The notes under the pieces were generated by a model. That model did no database searches. It was not told the DNA's origin and saw only the letters and a program-made list of their open reading frames with translations. From Pseudomonadota bacterium (lineage in GTDB: Bacteria; Pseudomonadota; Gammaproteobacteria; Pseudomonadales; Pseudohongiellaceae): 64,000 nt of DNA. The translations under genes were made by a program, and so were the position numbers. The DNA lies in the NCBI GenBank assembly GCA_027592275.1, contig JAQCKF010000004.1, forward strand, positions 62,001 to 126,000, written 5' to 3'. Of this stretch, positions 3,608 to 13,829 are shown one piece after another. Within the stretch, counting starts at the first letter, position 1. Each line of letters starts with the position of its first letter.

Positions 3608-5068
3608 TTGAACCAAGCACTTGAAACCCAGCCAGCAAACTATGTACTGGTAGTTAAAAAAGACTGTCCTACTTGCACCTTGATCGAACCTGTCATTCAG
3701 GCTCTGGCGAGAAGCACAGCACTTTCCCTGAAAGTCTATGTACAGGACGACCCCTCGTTTCCAGCGAACTTAGACGGCGTAATCGACGATTCAAGTCTGG
3801 AGTATTCGTATCAAGCCGACATTGAAGTTGTTCCAACCCTAATTCGCCTTACAGATGGCTTCGACCCGCACTCTGAAGAGTCCCGAATCTATGGCTGGGA
3901 TAAGGAGCAGTGGCAGAGCTTTACGCGCATAAAAGACCTGGGCGCCGAGCTTGTTAATTTTAAACCTGGCTGCGGATCCAAGACACAAGACCCCGGCATG
4001 AGCGAAGTCTTAGCACTGCGTTTCGGCAAGCAGATACTGCAGGCTCGATCCATTGAGGTGGCCGAGGCCGAGGACATCATGGAGGCCTGCTACGACCGAG
4101 GCTGGAGCGATGGTCTGCCGGTAGTGCCACCCACTCCCCTTCGCGTTATGCGCATGCTAGGTGGCAGCGAACGTGATGCCGCCGAGATTGTCGGCAAGGC
4201 GCCTCCTGACAATGTGCCTTGCACCATCGAGAAGATCGCAATTAACGCGGTCATGGCCGGTTGCAAACCCGAATACTTCCCCGTTGTTATCGCCAGCGTC
4301 GAGGCAGCCTTGCAAGATCGCTTCTGTATGCACGGTCTACTCTGTACCACCTATTTCTCTTCACCTGTGATGGTGGTCAACGGGCCGATTACAAAACAGA
4401 TTGGCATGAACTCGGGCGTCAATGCGCTTGGTCAGGGTAATCGTGCTAACGCTACAATAGGCAGAGCGCTGCAGCTGATAATCCGTAACGTCGGCGGCGG
4501 TGTGCCCGGTGGTATCGATCGAGCGAATATGGGCAACCCGGGCAAATACACCTACTGTTTCGCCGAAGACGAGAGCGATGAGAATTGGGCAAGTCTCTCT
4601 ATGGATCGCGGCTTCGAGCGCAAAGACTCTGTTATCAGCCTGTTCGCGGGCGACGGTCTGCAACCGGTGCTCGATCAACAATCGCGCACGCCACAATCAC
4701 TCGCCAAGAGCATGGCAATGAGCCTGCGCAGCGTGGCACATACCAAACTATTCGGCATGGCAGATGCTATTCTCGTGGTCTGTCCAGAACATCGCCGTGT
4801 TTTCCGTGAAGGCGGCTGGAATAAAGAGGACCTACGCAAAGCACTGTATGAAGAACTAATGACACCTGGCGCTGAGGTTATTCGCGGAGCCAATGACATA
4901 GCCGAAGGCATGCCGGCAAAGTTCAAAGACAAGATGCTCAACAAATTTCGAGACGATGGCCTGCATATCGTTACCACTGGTGGCACGGCAGGAATGTTCT
5001 CTGCCATCATCGGTGGCTGGGTTGCCTCAGGTGAACGTGGCAGCCAGTTAACATCACAAAAGATTTAA
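3608..5068 (+). CDS. Thioredoxin-like two-domain protein, likely UGSC-system partner
   Basis: This is a cytoplasmic 486-aa protein with no signal peptide. Residues 1-110 look like a thioredoxin fold: CPTC at 20-23 and a VVPT cis-proline loop near 75-77. A GCGSKT motif follows at 121-126, then a second domain of about 350 aa with RGWSDGLPVVPPT near 164-176 and a glycine-rich segment at RNVGGGVPGG. It starts with TTG at 3608, supported by AAGGAA about 9 nt upstream. The downstream gene encodes a UGSC selenoprotein, and the WSDGLPVVPPT region is, from memory, found with that family. A thiol-redox partnership is inferred; the substrate is unknown. Confidence 0.65.
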   Translation: MNQALETQPANYVLVVKKDCPTCTLIEPVIQALARSTALSLKVYVQDDPSFPANLDGVIDDSSLEYSYQADIEVVPTLIRLTDGFDPHSEESRIYGWDKEQWQSFTRIKDLGAELVNFKPGCGSKTQDPGMSEVLALRFGKQILQARSIEVAEAEDIMEACYDRGWSDGLPVVPPTPLRVMRMLGGSERDAAEIVGKAPPDNVPCTIEKIAINAVMAGCKPEYFPVVIASVEAALQDRFCMHGLLCTTYFSSPVMVVNGPITKQIGMNSGVNALGQGNRANATIGRALQLIIRNVGGGVPGGIDRANMGNPGKYTYCFAEDESDENWASLSMDRGFERKDSVISLFAGDGLQPVLDQQSRTPQSLAKSMAMSLRSVAHTKLFGMADAILVVCPEHRRVFREGGWNKEDLRKALYEELMTPGAEVIRGANDIAEGMPAKFKDKMLNKFRDDGLHIVTTGGTAGMFSAIIGGWVASGERGSQLTSQKI

Positions 5069-5081
5069 CCCTAGGTTGTAA

Positions 5082-5352
5082 TTAGGGCACCTCTGAACAA
5101 CGCGGATAGCGCTCAGCGGGGCATAAAGCACTCATATGCTAGGCGTGCTTTGAAGCTAATGGCCTTAGTCCTTAGCAAGAAGCACAACAACGCAGATGGG
5201 TGCTTTAGGCCCCGCCCGAAGGGGCTTACAAGCGAGCCCGCCCTCTTCGTTGCCACTTTTTGGCGTACGGACGTATGCCAGCAAAGTGACGTCTCGATGG
5301 CAAGCTCGCCTGTAAGCCTGAGTGCCAGCCGCGTTGTTCAGAGGCGCCCTAA
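5082..5352. mobile_element. MITE-like element with 24-bp terminal inverted repeats
   Basis: The first and last 24 bp (5082-5105 and 5329-5352) are inverted copies with one mismatch, each beginning TTAGGGC and containing CCTCTGAACAACGCGG. Inside, CTTACA/TGTAAG next to GCGAGC/GCTCGC form another inverted pair, and GCATAAAGCAC mirrors GTGCTTTAGGC, so the element folds into nested hairpins. It encodes no transposase. A TA target duplication is possible if GGGC is the true end. It sits between the thioredoxin-like gene and the selenoprotein gene and so separates their expression. Open frames inside it are by-products of the palindromes. Confidence 0.8.
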
Positions 5353-5399: not shown

Positions 5400-5930
5400 A
5401 TGCAAAACACTACCACCCTTCTGGATCCGACCGCGGAGCTGCAGAGCGCAGTGCGGCAGTTGTTACCCAGGCTAAAGAGTATCGCTGGCTTGACCGTTGG
5501 CTTGTTGGATATTTCCAAGCCCCGCGGCAAAGAATTTCTAGATGAAGTACAGAAGCATCTGGAAGAAGCCGGTGCGAAGGTAAAGCGCTATACCAAGCCC
5601 ACCTTCACACGTGTAGCGCCGACAGAGCTAACGCAGCAAATTAGCGTCGAGTGCGACGCAGTAATCGAAGGACTCGCCGACTGAGGCTCATGTACCTCGT
5701 GCAGTTTGCATGACATCATGGACTTAGAAAGCAGAGGCCTTCCGTCGGGCTTCATCGCCTCAAGAGAATTTATCGACGCCGCTGCCGCACAGGGAAAGTC
5801 TCTAGGCATTATCCCGGCGAGCGTGTTCGTTGCACATCCAATTCAGGATCGAACTGATGAAGAAATGGCGCAACTAGCACTTAGTTCGATCGACGCGATC
5901 ACAGCAATGATTTGCGAAAAGAGCCAGTAA
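5400..5930 (+). CDS. UGSC-family selenoprotein (in-frame UGA = selenocysteine)
   Basis: The gene starts with ATG at 5400 (AAGAGG 8 nt upstream) and ends with TAA at 5928-5930. It is interrupted by one in-frame TGA at 5682-5684. Reading TGA as selenocysteine gives a continuous 176-aa protein with the motif U95-G-S-C followed by T-S-C. Both halves are in the same frame, and coding quality continues to the TAA. UGSC proteins are a known bacterial selenoprotein family reported from marine metagenomes. A selenenyl-sulfide redox centre between U95 and the cysteine at 98 is likely. A bacterial SECIS-like hairpin lies directly downstream of the UGA. Automatic annotation would split this gene in two. 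The reaction is unknown. Confidence 0.9.
5682..5714 (+). promoter_or_regulatory. UGA selenocysteine codon with bacterial SECIS-like hairpin
   Basis: After the TGA at 5682-5684, arms TCGTGCA (5697-5703) and TGCATGA (5707-5713) pair fully, with one G-U wobble. The apical loop is GTT (5704-5706), and its first base is the G expected in bacterial SECIS loops for SelB. The loop begins 19 nt after the UGA, inside the usual spacing. The hairpin is itself translated. Confidence 0.8.
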
Positions 5931-6014: not shown

Positions 6015-7199
6015 ATGACCAGAGAAGCAGTAATTGTATCAACAGCACGCACTCCAATTGGCAAAGCCTATAGAGGCGCATTCAATAATACGGACGCCCC
6101 TACACTGGGAGGACATGCAATTGCTGCAGCCGTTGAACGCGCAGGTATCGATCCTAGCGAAGTAGATGACGTAGTAATGGGTTGTGCCATGCAGCAAGGA
6201 TCTTCTGGCAACAACATAGGCCGCACTGCTGGTGTTGTAGCAGGACTACCGAGTTCTGTAGCCGGCATGAGCGTAGATCGCCAGTGTGCCTCCGGCATGA
6301 TGGCTATAGCTACTGCAGCGAAGCAGGTCATCGTTGATGGCATGCCTATCGTAGTTGGTGGTGGTCTGGATTCGATTTCTCTCGTGGCGAATGAGCACCG
6401 CAATTCCTATCGCGCGCAAGACCCGAATGTACTAGCCAAATCTCAACACGCCTATATGTCCATGATAGAGACAGCCGAAGTTGTAGCTAAGCGCTACGGT
6501 GTGTCCCGCGATGCACAGGACGAATATGCTCTTCGATCGCAACAGCGAACAGCCGCCGCACAACTGGCCGGTGCGTTTGATGATGAGATCGTACCCATGG
6601 TTTCTAAGATGCTGTTCATGGACAAGGAAACGAAAGAGCAGAGCGTACACGAGACGATGCTAGAGAAGGATGAGGGCAATCGTCCTACGACGACTCTCGA
6701 AGGCCTACAAGGCTTGAAGCCAGTCTATGAAGGCGGCGTAATTAGCGCCGGTAATGCCAGTCAGTTATCTGATGGCGCATCTGCTTCGGTGGTTATGGAT
6801 AGCAAATTGGCCGAACAGAGAGGCTTGCAACCACTTGGTGCCTATCGCGGCATGGCTGTTGCTGGCTTGGAGCCTGATGAGATGGGCATCGGTCCAATCT
6901 ACGCTGTGCCTAAGTTGCTGGAACGCAATAATCTGAAGATGGATGACATCGGGCTTTGGGAATTGAATGAGGCGTTTGCGGTACAGGTAATCTACTGCCG
7001 TGACCAACTGGGCATTCCTGATGAACTACTCAACGTAAATGGTGGTGCCATCTCAATCGGACACCCTTTTGGTATGAGCGGTGCACGCATGGTCGGACAC
7101 GCCCTTATCGAAGGCAAGCGACGCGGCGTTAAATACGTTGTTTGTACGATGTGTGTAGGCGGCGGAATGGGTGCTGCTGGACTATTTGAAGTTTACTAG
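6015..7199 (+). CDS. Thiolase / acetyl-CoA C-acyltransferase
   Basis: This 394-aa thiolase carries out CoA-dependent cleavage or condensation of 3-ketoacyl-CoA. The nucleophile lies in DRQCASGMM (C91). The histidine is in [14 protein letters not shown], and the second cysteine is in [12 protein letters not shown] close to the C-terminus. All three family signatures are intact and the length is typical. The ATG at 6015 follows AGAGGAAGAG. It lies 84 bp after the selenoprotein gene on the same strand, so cotranscription is possible. Its 3' end overlaps the convergent gene by 4 bp. It may act in fatty-acid breakdown or polyhydroxyalkanoate chemistry; the sequence does not decide. Confidence 0.92.
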
Positions 7200-8569: not shown

Positions 8570-8861
8570 TAGACATTCTGCTAGTTGTTTGCGGGTAGAG
8601 GCCATCATTTAAACAGCTAGGTCGAATCAACCCAATGGCTTGTGAGGGAAGTATATTCGGTTCCCGCCTCCATAACAGCCGCAAGTCACAACTTACTGAA
8701 ATTAAAGAGATTAGCTGCCAGATCAGCACAAGTTTCTGTCCGCTTATCGCATAGGGATGCTGATATCTTGATTCACGCAGGCTACTAGGTTACTGTCGAT
8801 ATTCGCTGTTTAACGCACAACCGACAGCCAAACAATAACTACTAAAAGTACTGCATTGCTT

Positions 8862-10145
8862 ATGAAAAAATCCCAACTCTCCAGCAAGATTTTCCGCTCA
8901 TTTCGTAAGCCGCTTATAGCTATCAGCCTAGTCTCAGTAGCTATATTGAATAGCACCAGCTCAGCACAAGAACCCGTGCGCATCGCCTTCATGGACCCTC
9001 TCTCCGGCACGTTTGCATCGATCGGCAACACTGGACTGAAGCTCTTGGAGTTTGCAGCGGACTACTACTACAATTCCAAGGGCGGAATATTAGGGGGACG
9101 CATGATCGAAATCCTTCCTCTGGACAACAAGCAAAGTCCTACTGAGACACAGCTACAGTTTCGCCGAGCGATAAGCGAAGAGATTCAAATTATCTTTCAG
9201 GGAAATAGCTCGGCAGTTGCCAGCACTCTGAGCCAGACTATCTCTCGACATAACCGACGCAATCCTGACCAAGAAGTCTTGCAGATAAACTATTCCGCAG
9301 TAGACCCCATCCTTACCGAAGACAACTGCAGCTTCTGGCATTTTCGTTTCGATGCGCATGCCAACATGAAGCTAGATATTCTCACCGATTACATCGCCCT
9401 CAACCCTGACATATCGCGCATGTACATCATCGGCCAGGACTATTCTTTCGGGCAAGTGGTATCAGACACCACAATCAAATTGTTGAATGAAAAACGTCCA
9501 GACATCGAAATTGTCGGCAATGAGTTTCATCCTATCGGTCAGGTAAAAGACTTTACTCCGTATGTAACCAAGATCGTCTCCTCAGGTGCTGATGCAGTAG
9601 TTACGGGTAATTTTGGAGCGGACATGGTTTCCCTTGCACGATCCATAATCGACTCAGGTCTCGATATACCCATCTACACTTTCTACGCTGCCTACGACGG
9701 CATTACCGCTACTCTCGGTGAAAGCGGTAAGAATAAGATCAGACTAATACACAACGGTGTCGCCAACCCTCTTCCAACGGAGGCGCGTAAGCAGCTCAAT
9801 CGAGATTTCAAAATAGCGAATCCAAATTACGATATAACACAGCCTCGCATAGTCAATGCATTACAAATGGTAGTCACGGCGATGGAAGAGACACAGAGTA
9901 CTGACCCGTATGACATTGCCATAGCTTTGGAAGACATGCGCTTCACCACAATTGGCGGCGAAGAGATTTGGATGCGCGGAGAAGATCACCAGATTTTTCA
10001 GAAACTGAGCATATCGGTACACACAGATGAAGGTGTGGAATTCGACGCAGATAATTCAGGCTATGGCTTAGTTACCGAGTACCAGGTTCCGCTAGAAGAG
10101 ACCATAGTTGAGTCAAGCTGCCAAATGAGACGACCCCGGCGTTGA
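8862..10145 (+). CDS. ABC transporter substrate-binding protein, branched-chain amino acid type
   Basis: This is a periplasmic type-1 binding protein of 427 aa. A signal peptide (cleavage near SSAQ-EP) is followed by RIAFMDPLSGTFASIGN, the ligand-binding opening of the LivJ/urea-type family. Further conserved stretches are IIFQGNSSAVAS, MYIIGQDYSFGQ and the ADAVVTGNFGADM strand. The ATG at 8862 was preferred to a TTG two codons upstream. It heads a run of five import genes. Ligands in this family include branched-chain amino acids, amides, urea and aromatic acids; the actual one is not evident. Confidence 0.88.
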   Translation: MKKSQLSSKIFRSFRKPLIAISLVSVAILNSTSSAQEPVRIAFMDPLSGTFASIGNTGLKLLEFAADYYYNSKGGILGGRMIEILPLDNKQSPTETQLQFRRAISEEIQIIFQGNSSAVASTLSQTISRHNRRNPDQEVLQINYSAVDPILTEDNCSFWHFRFDAHANMKLDILTDYIALNPDISRMYIIGQDYSFGQVVSDTTIKLLNEKRPDIEIVGNEFHPIGQVKDFTPYVTKIVSSGADAVVTGNFGADMVSLARSIIDSGLDIPIYTFYAAYDGITATLGESGKNKIRLIHNGVANPLPTEARKQLNRDFKIANPNYDITQPRIVNALQMVVTAMEETQSTDPYDIAIALEDMRFTTIGGEEIWMRGEDHQIFQKLSISVHTDEGVEFDADNSGYGLVTEYQVPLEETIVESSCQMRRPRR

Positions 10146-10205
10146 AATTTCTAACACTCCAGCTTAAAATAAGACACATGGAACCAGTTAAACGCTAAGG
10201 CCAGC

Positions 10206-11156
10206 ATGCTAGAAGTTTTAATCTTTGCCACACTAAATGGCCTAGTCACCGGATTCTTGTTGTTCATGTTGGCCAGTGGTCTGACGCTTATCTTCAGCAT
10301 GATGGGTGTGCTTAATTTCGCACACGCCAGTTTCTACATGCTCGGCGCCTACTTCGCCTATTCGCTTAGTCTCTATTTCGGTTTTTGGACCGGACTGATC
10401 TTTGCCCCTCTCATCGTCGGTGCGCTAGGCGCTCTTGTTGAACGCTACGGCCTAAGAAAGGTCCATGCCTCTGGGCACGTTGCCGAGCTCGTGTTTACAT
10501 TCGGGCTCGCTTTTCTCATAGAAGAATCTATACAGTTCTTCTGGGGTCGCGACACGAAGAACTACCAAACCCCCGACCTCTTAGATTTCCCATTGTTTAC
10601 CCTCTTCGGACAAGAGTTCTCTGCCTATCGTGGTTTCATGATGGCGATCTCCATCGGCATCTTTATCGCGCTTTACTACGTACTCACAAAGAGTCGAGTC
10701 GGCATTATTATTCAAGCGGCGATTACCCACCCGCAGACTGTTTCGAATCTCGGTCACAATGTTCCTCTGATCTTTATGGGAGTGTTCGGCGTAGGCACAG
10801 CGCTCGCAGGCCTCGCTGGAGTTATAGCAGGGCCAGTACTCACTACATTCCCCGGCATGGCTACTGTGTTGGGCAGCATCGTGTTTGTGATAGTGATAAT
10901 CGGCGGGCTAGGCTCACTAGCCGGCGCATTTATTGCCTCGCTGTTGATCGGTCTATTGCAGTCCTATGCTATCGCCTCCGATGTCGGCATGCCTGACTTG
11001 CTCAACTTACTAGGCATCTCCTTTGATCGAAGTCATCCGTTGAACGATCTGTGGACGATGAACCTTCCGCAGATTGCCCCAGTGTTACCGTATCTGTTGT
11101 TGGTTCTAGTGCTGATCTTCAGACCGACAGGCTTGTTGGGTAAGCGAGAAGAATAA
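10206..11156 (+). CDS. livH: Branched-chain-type ABC permease LivH-like
   Basis: This is an inner-membrane permease of 316 aa with about eight hydrophobic segments. LTLIFSMMGVLNFAHASFYMLGAY is the LivH signature region, and IGGLGSLAGAFIASLLIGLLQS is the conserved segment that contacts the ATPase. Its stop overlaps the next start as TAATG, which shows translational coupling with the second permease. It would pair with that protein to form the transport channel of the importer encoded here. Confidence 0.9.
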   Translation: MLEVLIFATLNGLVTGFLLFMLASGLTLIFSMMGVLNFAHASFYMLGAYFAYSLSLYFGFWTGLIFAPLIVGALGALVERYGLRKVHASGHVAELVFTFGLAFLIEESIQFFWGRDTKNYQTPDLLDFPLFTLFGQEFSAYRGFMMAISIGIFIALYYVLTKSRVGIIIQAAITHPQTVSNLGHNVPLIFMGVFGVGTALAGLAGVIAGPVLTTFPGMATVLGSIVFVIVIIGGLGSLAGAFIASLLIGLLQSYAIASDVGMPDLLNLLGISFDRSHPLNDLWTMNLPQIAPVLPYLLLVLVLIFRPTGLLGKREE

Positions 11157-12388
11157 TGGCGCTATTGAAAAAATCATCGATCTGGATTGCCTTTCTAGTT
11201 GCGTTGTTGGGGCTTCCGCTACTGTTCGACTCCATACTCGCGATCTCCATACTGAATCAGATGGCGATAGGTATCGTATTCGCCCTTAGCTACAATATGC
11301 TACTCGGCCAGGGTGGCATGCTCTCCTTCGGACATGCCGTCTACTTTGGGCTGGGAGGTTTTCTCTCGGTTCACGCGTTAATGCTCATCGAATACGAGAC
11401 GATGGTGTTCTCTATTCTTTGGATTCCATTGATAGGCGGTCTATTCGGTCTTCTGGCTGGAATATTTATTGGCAGCTTCTCCACGCGCAAGGCTGGCACC
11501 GTATTCGCGATGATTTCACTTGGCATCGGTGAACTCATCGCTGCCTCTTCGCTTATCTTCTCCAGCTTTTTCGGTGGCGAAGCAGGCATCAGTGGCGATC
11601 GCACATTCGGCCCCACTTTTTTCGGTTTTGACTTTGCACAGAATATCGAGATCTACTATGTCGCCGCCGTCTGGGCGTTCATTGCCACTCTGTTTACGTG
11701 GCTGTTTACACAGACGCCAGCGGGTAGAATGGCCAATGCCGTGCGTGACAACCCTGAGCGCGCTGAGTTTATTGGCTACAGTTCGAGAAAGGTACGCTTC
11801 ATCTCCTTCTGCGCATCGGGGATGTTTGCTGGAATCGCCGGCGGGCTATTTGCCCTCAACTACGAGTTCATCACCGAAGAAAACTTAAACGCTGCAACCT
11901 CAGGCCGCGTACTTCTAATGGCCTACATCGGTGGCTTGGGTTATTTCATAGGCCCGATAATTGGCGCAGTGGTACTGACGCTAATGAATTCTTTGCTAAG
12001 CAACTATTCCGAACTCTGGATGTTGTATCTGGGCATAATGTTTTTACTAACCGTGATGTTTCTACCGCGAGGCTTTGCCGGGTTCATCATGATGCATCAG
12101 GTCGCTTGGGTTCGCGGCAACATGAAGATGCTGATCAAGCCGTACATCATCACTGGTATTCCTGCGTTGCTATTCACAGCTTGCGCCATCGTACTGATTG
12201 AGATGAGTCATACTGATGATGAGGTTTTTCACTACCTTGGGCTCGCGCTGAATCCTGCTAGCCCAATTACTTGGATCGTTATTCTTGCCATTGCCGGCGG
12301 AGCCTTCTATGCCACCAAGAGGTCTCTGATACAACTGAATGACGCATGGGAGACCGCTAATGCGATTCCCAAGGAAGAGGAGGCTTAG
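11156..12388 (+). CDS. livM: Branched-chain-type ABC permease LivM-like
   Basis: The second permease has 410 aa. It has the LivM signatures ALSYNMLLGQGGMLSFGHAVYFGLGG and YIGGLGYFIGPIIGAVVLTLM. It is longer than many LivM proteins because about 70 extra residues follow the core, with two more hydrophobic segments (ITGIPALLFTACAIVLIE and ITWIVILAIAGGAFYAT). The start overlaps the stop of the first permease by one base. The ATPase gene follows after 3 bp. Confidence 0.9.
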   Translation: MALLKKSSIWIAFLVALLGLPLLFDSILAISILNQMAIGIVFALSYNMLLGQGGMLSFGHAVYFGLGGFLSVHALMLIEYETMVFSILWIPLIGGLFGLLAGIFIGSFSTRKAGTVFAMISLGIGELIAASSLIFSSFFGGEAGISGDRTFGPTFFGFDFAQNIEIYYVAAVWAFIATLFTWLFTQTPAGRMANAVRDNPERAEFIGYSSRKVRFISFCASGMFAGIAGGLFALNYEFITEENLNAATSGRVLLMAYIGGLGYFIGPIIGAVVLTLMNSLLSNYSELWMLYLGIMFLLTVMFLPRGFAGFIMMHQVAWVRGNMKMLIKPYIITGIPALLFTACAIVLIEMSHTDDEVFHYLGLALNPASPITWIVILAIAGGAFYATKRSLIQLNDAWETANAIPKEEEA

Positions 12389-12391
12389 CGC

Positions 12392-13141
12392 GTGGCTATT
12401 CTTTCCCTTATCGATGTGAAGAAAAGTTTCGGTATCACGGAAATTATCCGTGGCGTCTCGCTCGATATAGTCGAGGGCGAGAAGCACGCCATCATTGGGC
12501 CCAATGGCGCTGGAAAGTCCACGCTATTCCATCTCATCAGCGGGCGCTACAACGTAAGCGCCGGCAGCATCCACTTCAAGGAACAACAGATAGAGAACAA
12601 GCCGCCCTATGAGATTGCTCGCATGGGCCTCGCGCGCAGTTTTCAGGTTACGAATATATTCCAGCGCATGAGCGTATTCGAGAATATTCGCTGCGCCTTG
12701 TTCTGGTCGAAAGGTTACGGCTATTCCTTCTGGCACCTACTAGGCAAGCAAACAGAATTGAACGATGAGGCCATGCATGTACTCGAACAGATCGGCCTCG
12801 CAGACAGGGCAAAGTTTCCTTCCGGAGAACTCGCCTACGCAGAACTGAGGGCGCTAGAGCTGGGTGTAGCCATAGCCAGCGGTTCAGAACTTATTATGCT
12901 GGATGAGCCGGTTGCGGGCATGAGCCATAGCGAAGCGCAGAATGCGGTTGAGCTGATCCGCAAGATTACCGAGGGCAAGACGCTGATTATGGTTGAGCAC
13001 GATATGAATATCGTCTTTGATGTCGCGGATCGCATCTCAGTCCTCGTATACGGTGAAATTATTGCAACGGACGAGCCGAAAAACATCCGCGCCAATTCCA
13101 AGGTTCAAGAAGCCTATCTCGGCGAGGTGCCTAGTGCTTAA
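12392..13141 (+). CDS. livG: ABC transporter ATPase LivG-like
   Basis: This is a cytoplasmic ATPase of 249 aa. Walker A is GPNGAGKST, Walker B is LIMLDEPVAGM and the switch histidine is in MVEHDMNIVF. The signature motif is degenerate (LAYAELRALELG instead of LSYGEQR), which occurs in one LivG subgroup. It starts with GTG at 12392 behind a strong GGAAGAGGAGG. Its 3' end overlaps the next gene. Confidence 0.9.
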   Translation: MAILSLIDVKKSFGITEIIRGVSLDIVEGEKHAIIGPNGAGKSTLFHLISGRYNVSAGSIHFKEQQIENKPPYEIARMGLARSFQVTNIFQRMSVFENIRCALFWSKGYGYSFWHLLGKQTELNDEAMHVLEQIGLADRAKFPSGELAYAELRALELGVAIASGSELIMLDEPVAGMSHSEAQNAVELIRKITEGKTLIMVEHDMNIVFDVADRISVLVYGEIIATDEPKNIRANSKVQEAYLGEVPSA

Positions 13142-13829
13142 AGTCAGCGATCTTCATGCCTTTTACGGCAAAAGCCACATCCTGCAAGGCGTCAATTTCG
13201 ACGTTGCCGAGGGCGAGATTGTAAGCTTGCTCGGGCGCAACGGTGTCGGCCGCTCTACGACTGTTAAAACTATAATGGGCGAAGTCGAACCGCAGGGCTC
13301 TATCCAATTCAAAGGTAAAGAGATCGCAGGCAAAAAGAGTTTTGAGATCGCGCACTTAGGACTGGGTTATGTTCCGGAGAATCGTGACATCTTCCCGACG
13401 CTCAGCGTCCGCCAGAACCTTGTTCTGGGGATGAAGACGAATACTCCCCAGGGCCGCTGGAATATCGATGAAATGTTTAACATGTTTCCAAATCTAGCTG
13501 AGCGCGCCGATGTGCCCGGCGGGGCGCTCAGTGGTGGCGAGCAGCAGATGTTGTGTATGTGTCGCACGCTAATGGGCGATCCTGACATGATCATGATCGA
13601 TGAACCTACCGAGGGCTTGGCCCCGAAAATTGTCGAGCAACTCGCGCAATTACTGCAGGAAATCGCAAAGCGAGGCGTATCCATCTTATTGGTAGAGCAG
13701 AAGTTGTCTATCGCCCTCAAAATTTCTAATCGCCTCTACGTGATGGGTCACGGCAAGATCGTTTACGAAGGCACTCCAGAAAGTTTGCTACAGGCAGACG
13801 ATGTCAAAGCTGAGTGGCTGGAAGTATAA
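13134..13829 (+). CDS. livF: ABC transporter ATPase LivF-like with arginine in Walker A
   Basis: The second ATPase has 231 aa. It starts with GTG at 13134, inside the end of livG (8-bp overlap), which places the first strand LKVSDLHAFYG correctly; the frame is open further upstream but that part is livG in another frame. The signature LSGGEQQML and Walker B MIMIDEPTEGL are normal. Walker A reads GRNGVGRST, with arginine where lysine is expected (codon CGC). From memory some beta- and gammaproteobacterial LivF proteins share this change. It completes the importer. Confidence 0.9.
   Translation: MLKVSDLHAFYGKSHILQGVNFDVAEGEIVSLLGRNGVGRSTTVKTIMGEVEPQGSIQFKGKEIAGKKSFEIAHLGLGYVPENRDIFPTLSVRQNLVLGMKTNTPQGRWNIDEMFNMFPNLAERADVPGGALSGGEQQMLCMCRTLMGDPDMIMIDEPTEGLAPKIVEQLAQLLQEIAKRGVSILLVEQKLSIALKISNRLYVMGHGKIVYEGTPESLLQADDVKAEWLEV

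Follow-up and report, generated by a model that had tools for sequence, protein, structure and literature searches.

A 64,000-nt window from a pseudohongiellacean genome (assembly GCA_027592275.1, contig JAQCKF010000004.1, positions 62,001 to 126,000) contains, at positions 5400 to 5930, a gene that is a member of the UGSC family, already curated as PF24696 and NF041046, and comparison across related loci shows, as far as sequences can, that its protein is produced through recoding of one UGA as selenocysteine (Sec), directed by SelB and a Sec insertion sequence (SECIS). New beyond the known family are a constant partner gene, encoding a fusion of a thioredoxin domain with an unnamed domain that we call Unk1, and a remote link to the selenoproteins PrdB of D-proline reductase and GrdB of glycine reductase. 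Our preferred explanation, which we hold to be probable but far from settled, is that UGSC and thioredoxin-Unk1 together form a thioredoxin-fed two-protein selenoreductase built around a PrdB/GrdB-related Sec domain. With the constant partner, the fold class, and the remote selenoreductase link, the function of the family becomes open to biochemical testing on two proteins.

The UGSC gene and its recoding signals

The gene is a single 176-codon frame on the forward strand that starts with ATG at 5400, is interrupted by an in-frame TGA at 5682 to 5684, and ends with TAA at 5928 to 5930, as stated in an initial annotation made from the sequence alone. When the TGA is read as Sec, the product contains U95-G-S-C-T-S-C and passes the cutoffs of both PF24696 (135.2 bits, cutoff 25) and NF041046, named "UGSC family (seleno)protein" (142.1 bits, cutoff 125), which upholds the proposed family assignment. 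The match covers the whole length, the Sec position, the U-G-S-C motif, and the SECIS are all as in the family, and the window gene shows no important difference from it. The part downstream of the TGA matches PF24696 unaided (5706 to 5927, E 1.1e-7), and the downstream frame is therefore not there by chance. The initial annotation had also expected standard pipelines to report two truncated hypothetical proteins; this holds insofar as 107 of the 120 listed family proteins are short products of 96 to 111 amino acids (aa), but since the family is curated, present-day models can name the gene. It is the only UGSC gene in the window's genome.

We then read the codon at the Sec place in 90 loci, namely, the window, the best 80 of at least 584 relatives, and 9 of 14 class loci, and found TGA in every one where it was aligned. 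Among the class loci outside these 90, four (L022, L028, L030, and L032) have one TGA each, and the fifth (L024, from genome G337) has none. Genome G337 and the proteins P0002 and P0005 have Cys at this place, and P0006 has Arg. W or G stands there in some database entries (P0003, P0004, P0008, and P0011 among them), which may, at a guess, represent TGA under other genetic codes. The region past the TGA is thus conserved, as judged from its PF24696 match and from the conservation of the TGA and of codons across loci.

The genome that contains the window, in 43 contigs and with 95% completeness, encodes selB (382.9 bits), selA (574.8 bits), selD (286.3 bits), and a tRNA-Sec (66.9 bits, anticodon TCA), so that selA, selB, selC, and selD, the genes by which the initial annotation proposed to check the idea, are all present. 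Neither of the outcomes that the initial annotation named as refuting its reading, a genome lacking every Sec-insertion gene or a lack of conservation past the TGA, is observed. The selD match (G000, contig C41, 130070 to 130990) sits within a 759-aa open frame, the model having only 311 positions; Ndh-SelD fusions are mentioned in the accessible part of PMC2398784. A selA gene scored above the cutoff in 27 of the 30 UGSC genomes searched. All 27 are among the 29 Sec-type genomes; the single genome of Cys type (G337, 75% complete) and two of Sec type, G135 (97% complete) and G395, stayed below the cutoff. UGSC, its partner, and selA all occur in the cultured strain Marinobacter daqiaonensis (L094), which offers a carrier for testing both proteins.

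In bacteria, the loop of the SECIS hairpin just past the UGA opens with a G. The window has a hairpin of this pattern, with stem arms at 5697 to 5703 and 5707 to 5713 and a GUU loop 19 nt from the TGA, at the position that had been proposed. Its codons are under unusual constraint. Over the window and the 80 relatives, the relative codon entropy was 0.10, 0.17, 0.00, 0.28, and 0.38 at codons +5, +6, +7, +10, and +11 after the Sec codon, versus 0.57 to 1.00 at all other conserved codons scored, where synonyms are freely used. The first four lie inside the hairpin and +11 directly after it, and the choice of codon is nearly fixed at Ser+7 (AGT in 78/78), Ser+5 (TCG in 70/73), and Cys+6 (TGC in 79/81). 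Codon +9, also in the hairpin, is free (0.86); the stem accepts G-U and G-C alike at that point. This freezing of synonymous sites identifies the hairpin as a real SECIS. In the 51 of 94 hairpin sequences used for a pairing test, standard pairs filled 94.3% of the stem cells, compared with 1.0 to 56.8% after sliding by 1 to 3 columns, and two stem pairs showed changes on both sides. Distant class-mate loci have different sequences, most of which fold into a hairpin at a similar position, and in several of these the loop is GGUC; L021 and L032 fold poorly there. The folding energy of the window hairpin alone is unremarkable (z of -1.4 and -1.9).

The thioredoxin-Unk1 partner

The gene directly upstream of the UGSC gene is the best clue to UGSC function and was absent from the initial annotation. 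Unk1 lies at most 362 nt from UGSC, on the same strand, in 90/90 loci, and the thioredoxin part accompanies it in 80/90. The CxxC motif is present in 72 of 74 partner proteins, these being the ones kept out of 80 after setting aside five with stops or unclear letters and L051, which had no gene call. Among 369 genomes, the six with Unk1 were also the six with UGSC; in this comparison only part of the candidates was scored in some genomes, so that copies were missed. When Unk1 places in other genomes were rechecked, a UGSC domain adjoined in 8/8. The two domains are fused in genomes G332, G135, and G337, and the fused UGSC proteins have no thioredoxin domain. That the two genes adjoin suggests that their products form one selenium enzyme, and the comparison of genomes lends strong support to UGSC as its Sec-bearing subunit and thioredoxin-Unk1 as the other.

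UGSC is among the commonest selenoprotein families of the Global Ocean Sampling (GOS) metagenomes from ocean and other waters, with 255 Sec sequences (PMC2398784, accessible part). As the initial annotation held, no function is given for it in the accessible parts of the literature found, and these parts of the literature on the family hold no description of the tie between UGSC and thioredoxin-Unk1. A UGSC/Unknown_1 fusion is shown in Figure S1A of PMC2398784, in which UGSC is likewise joined to a conserved domain that may be Unk1; at the window, in contrast, Unk1 is a separate gene in which a thioredoxin domain takes the place of UGSC.

Fused homologs among the database proteins include P0243 to P0258. 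Genome G332 has at least 11 UGSC copies (L022, L026 to L033, L162, and L163), nine of them fused to Unk1; L162 and L163 have a stop at the Sec place.

A PrdB/GrdB-related selenoenzyme and its alternatives

Profile comparisons and a predicted structure support a Rossmann-like fold for the UGSC domain and a remote relationship to the Sec domain of PrdB/GrdB. In the model, the elements alternate in a Rossmann-like order, and a helix follows closely on the Sec site (model residue C121). The PrdB-like profile was built from 28 proteins drawn from UGSC genomes, clostridial PrdB/GrdB being outside the set. PF07355 matched in 14 of 34 UGSC genomes, where 28 of 30 such loci are PrdB-like with read-through of a TGA, and all three of these proteins that were tested matched TIGR04483 with E values of 1.1e-46 to 7e-27, under the model cutoff. 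Against this profile, fused UGSC scored 91.6% (E 8.1e-7, 74 columns) and all UGSC 88.1% (E 3.1e-6), with the Sec columns aligned. The highest value was 0.6% among 22 controls (one reversed, 21 with shuffled columns) and 12.4% among 20 real neighbor families. Standalone and fused UGSC domains match at 99.9% over 171 columns, and the link therefore carries over to the window protein. By eye, UGSC and PrdB-like proteins have in common the spacing U-x2-C-x10-[LI]E-x2-G-[ILV]P, which includes the UxxC Sec site, and U-G-S-C-T-S-C of the window fits the UxxCxxC motif of GrdB (PMC13188914, accessible part). They differ in that the window protein has no direct match to TIGR04483 or PF07355 and in that thioredoxin-Unk1 stands where the known pyruvoyl subunit would be.

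Many PrdB-like selenoproteins (L114 to L143), with their TGA left unread, occur in UGSC genomes of several phyla.

We propose that the two proteins work as follows. A small substrate would be bound by Unk1, and the U95 selenolate would attack it, leading to reductive bond cleavage of the kind catalyzed by proline or glycine reductase. C98 would then form a selenenylsulfide with U95, to be reduced by the CxxC (C20/C23) of the fused thioredoxin, itself supplied by thioredoxin reductase. The reductive-cleavage step is inferred; thioredoxin is described as a reductant of glycine reductase (PMC13188914, accessible part). Near fused UGSC proteins, which have no thioredoxin domain of their own, genes resembling thioredoxin reductase occur in 3 of 9 stretches. 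In L148 and L152 such a gene adjoins the fused gene; in L150, where selB and selA flank the fused gene, it lies past selB at a distance of about 2 kb. This suggests that the unit needs thioredoxin-type electrons. More tentatively, and with somewhat less than even confidence, we see in the pair an autonomous selenoenzyme of the proline/glycine reductase type, spread over several phyla, in which Unk1 replaced the pyruvoyl subunit, thioredoxin is built in, and expanded sets of paralogs, such as the 11 or more UGSC copies of one genome, reflect the range of substrates.

Several observations weigh against the preferred explanation. The link to PrdB runs through the fused subfamily, because the standalone profile, the window's type and a shallow one (Neff 2.2), reached only 19.0% (E 0.0012) against the trimmed and 15.7% (E 0.0017) against the untrimmed PrdB-like set. 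The 20 real control families were compared with the fused profile, the standalone profile being outside that control, and one of them, a periplasmic binding protein, gave the 12.4% (E 0.0023). The window protein (P0001) had no PF07355 match up to E 10. The pyruvoyl partner family PF09338 was found in 0 of 18 UGSC genomes, in a search whose controls matched nowhere either, and the families listed for Unk1 proteins do not include it. No Sec or Cys occupies the Sec position in 15 of 17 full-length fused homologs (P0256 and P0259 have Cys), so that part of the family works without either, although this count is biased against Sec, as full-length database proteins cannot contain an unread TGA. Finally, the reductase-like genes scored 226, 264, and 139 bits, under the thioredoxin reductase cutoff of 343, and 6 of the 9 fused-UGSC stretches showed no such gene; these neighbors were judged by eye, with 8 proteins tested.

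The Sec could instead be a ligand, the pair binding or detoxifying a metal or metalloid without cleaving a substrate. The UxxCxxC of standalone members does offer three soft ligands, and metal-ligand roles have been suggested for some other selenoproteins (PMC13188914, accessible part), but the fused subfamily mostly retains only the U and the +3 Cys, and no neighboring gene apart from the partner recurs from group to group, so that no marker of metal handling appears among neighbor clusters annotated in part; we consider such a role unlikely. The literature supposes that UGSC itself is a thiol oxidoreductase of thioredoxin fold, or peroxidase-like, in which case the partner would merely be its reductant. 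UxxC is indeed a redox motif, yet the predicted order of elements and the place of the Sec site before a helix are Rossmann-like, no thioredoxin appears among the 50 matches listed for the modeled domain, and UGSC compared with the partner family's thioredoxin domain at only 1.5% and 0.5%; we consider this reading improbable. That the TGA is a true stop, leaving a decayed gene or two proteins, accords with the two pieces output by gene callers and can be dismissed in view of its universal conservation in the loci read, the residues conserved with free synonyms on both sides, the frozen hairpin codons, and the complete Sec machinery.

Other features of the locus

The features of the locus are collected in Table 1.

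Table 1. Positions in the window of the UGSC gene, its recoding signals, and flanking features
Feature	Position	Strand	Basis
Partner gene, encoding Unk1 (approximately residues 120 to 486) joined to a thioredoxin domain (C20-P-T-C23)	3608..5068	+	
Insertion resembling a miniature inverted-repeat transposable element (MITE), with 35-nt terminal inverted repeats, between partner and UGSC, outside the proposed system	5082..5352	.	Repeats; spacing in relatives
Gene encoding the UGSC selenoprotein (176 aa, Sec at U95)	5400..5930	+	PF24696, E 3.2e-39; NF041046, 142.1 bits
Sec codon UGA (U95)	5682..5684	+	TGA in 90/90 loci read; Cys instead in genome G337
SECIS hairpin, 7-bp stem, loop GUU 5704 to 5706	5697..5713	+	Synonymous codon freeze; pairing across loci; fold
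Acetyl-CoA acyltransferase (thiolase), outside the proposed system	6015..7199	+	Beside UGSC only in close relatives

Over the 80 loci, the most frequent neighbor clusters were the partner (71), the thiolase (33), and an ATP-binding cassette (ABC) ATPase (30). The 33 loci with the thiolase next to UGSC are those most similar to the window, and none of the 47 others has it there. The terminal repeats of the MITE-like insertion are 89% complementary, and contig C10 of the same genome carries a second copy with 86% identity. The distance between the partner and UGSC matches is 335 nt in the window versus 68 to 70 nt in L034, L035, L037, L038, and L041 (68 nt in L034, L035, and L041). Downstream of the thiolase, positions 8856 to 13829 encode a Liv-type ABC transporter (a binding protein, two permeases, and two ATPases), which is retained in many close relatives of the locus.
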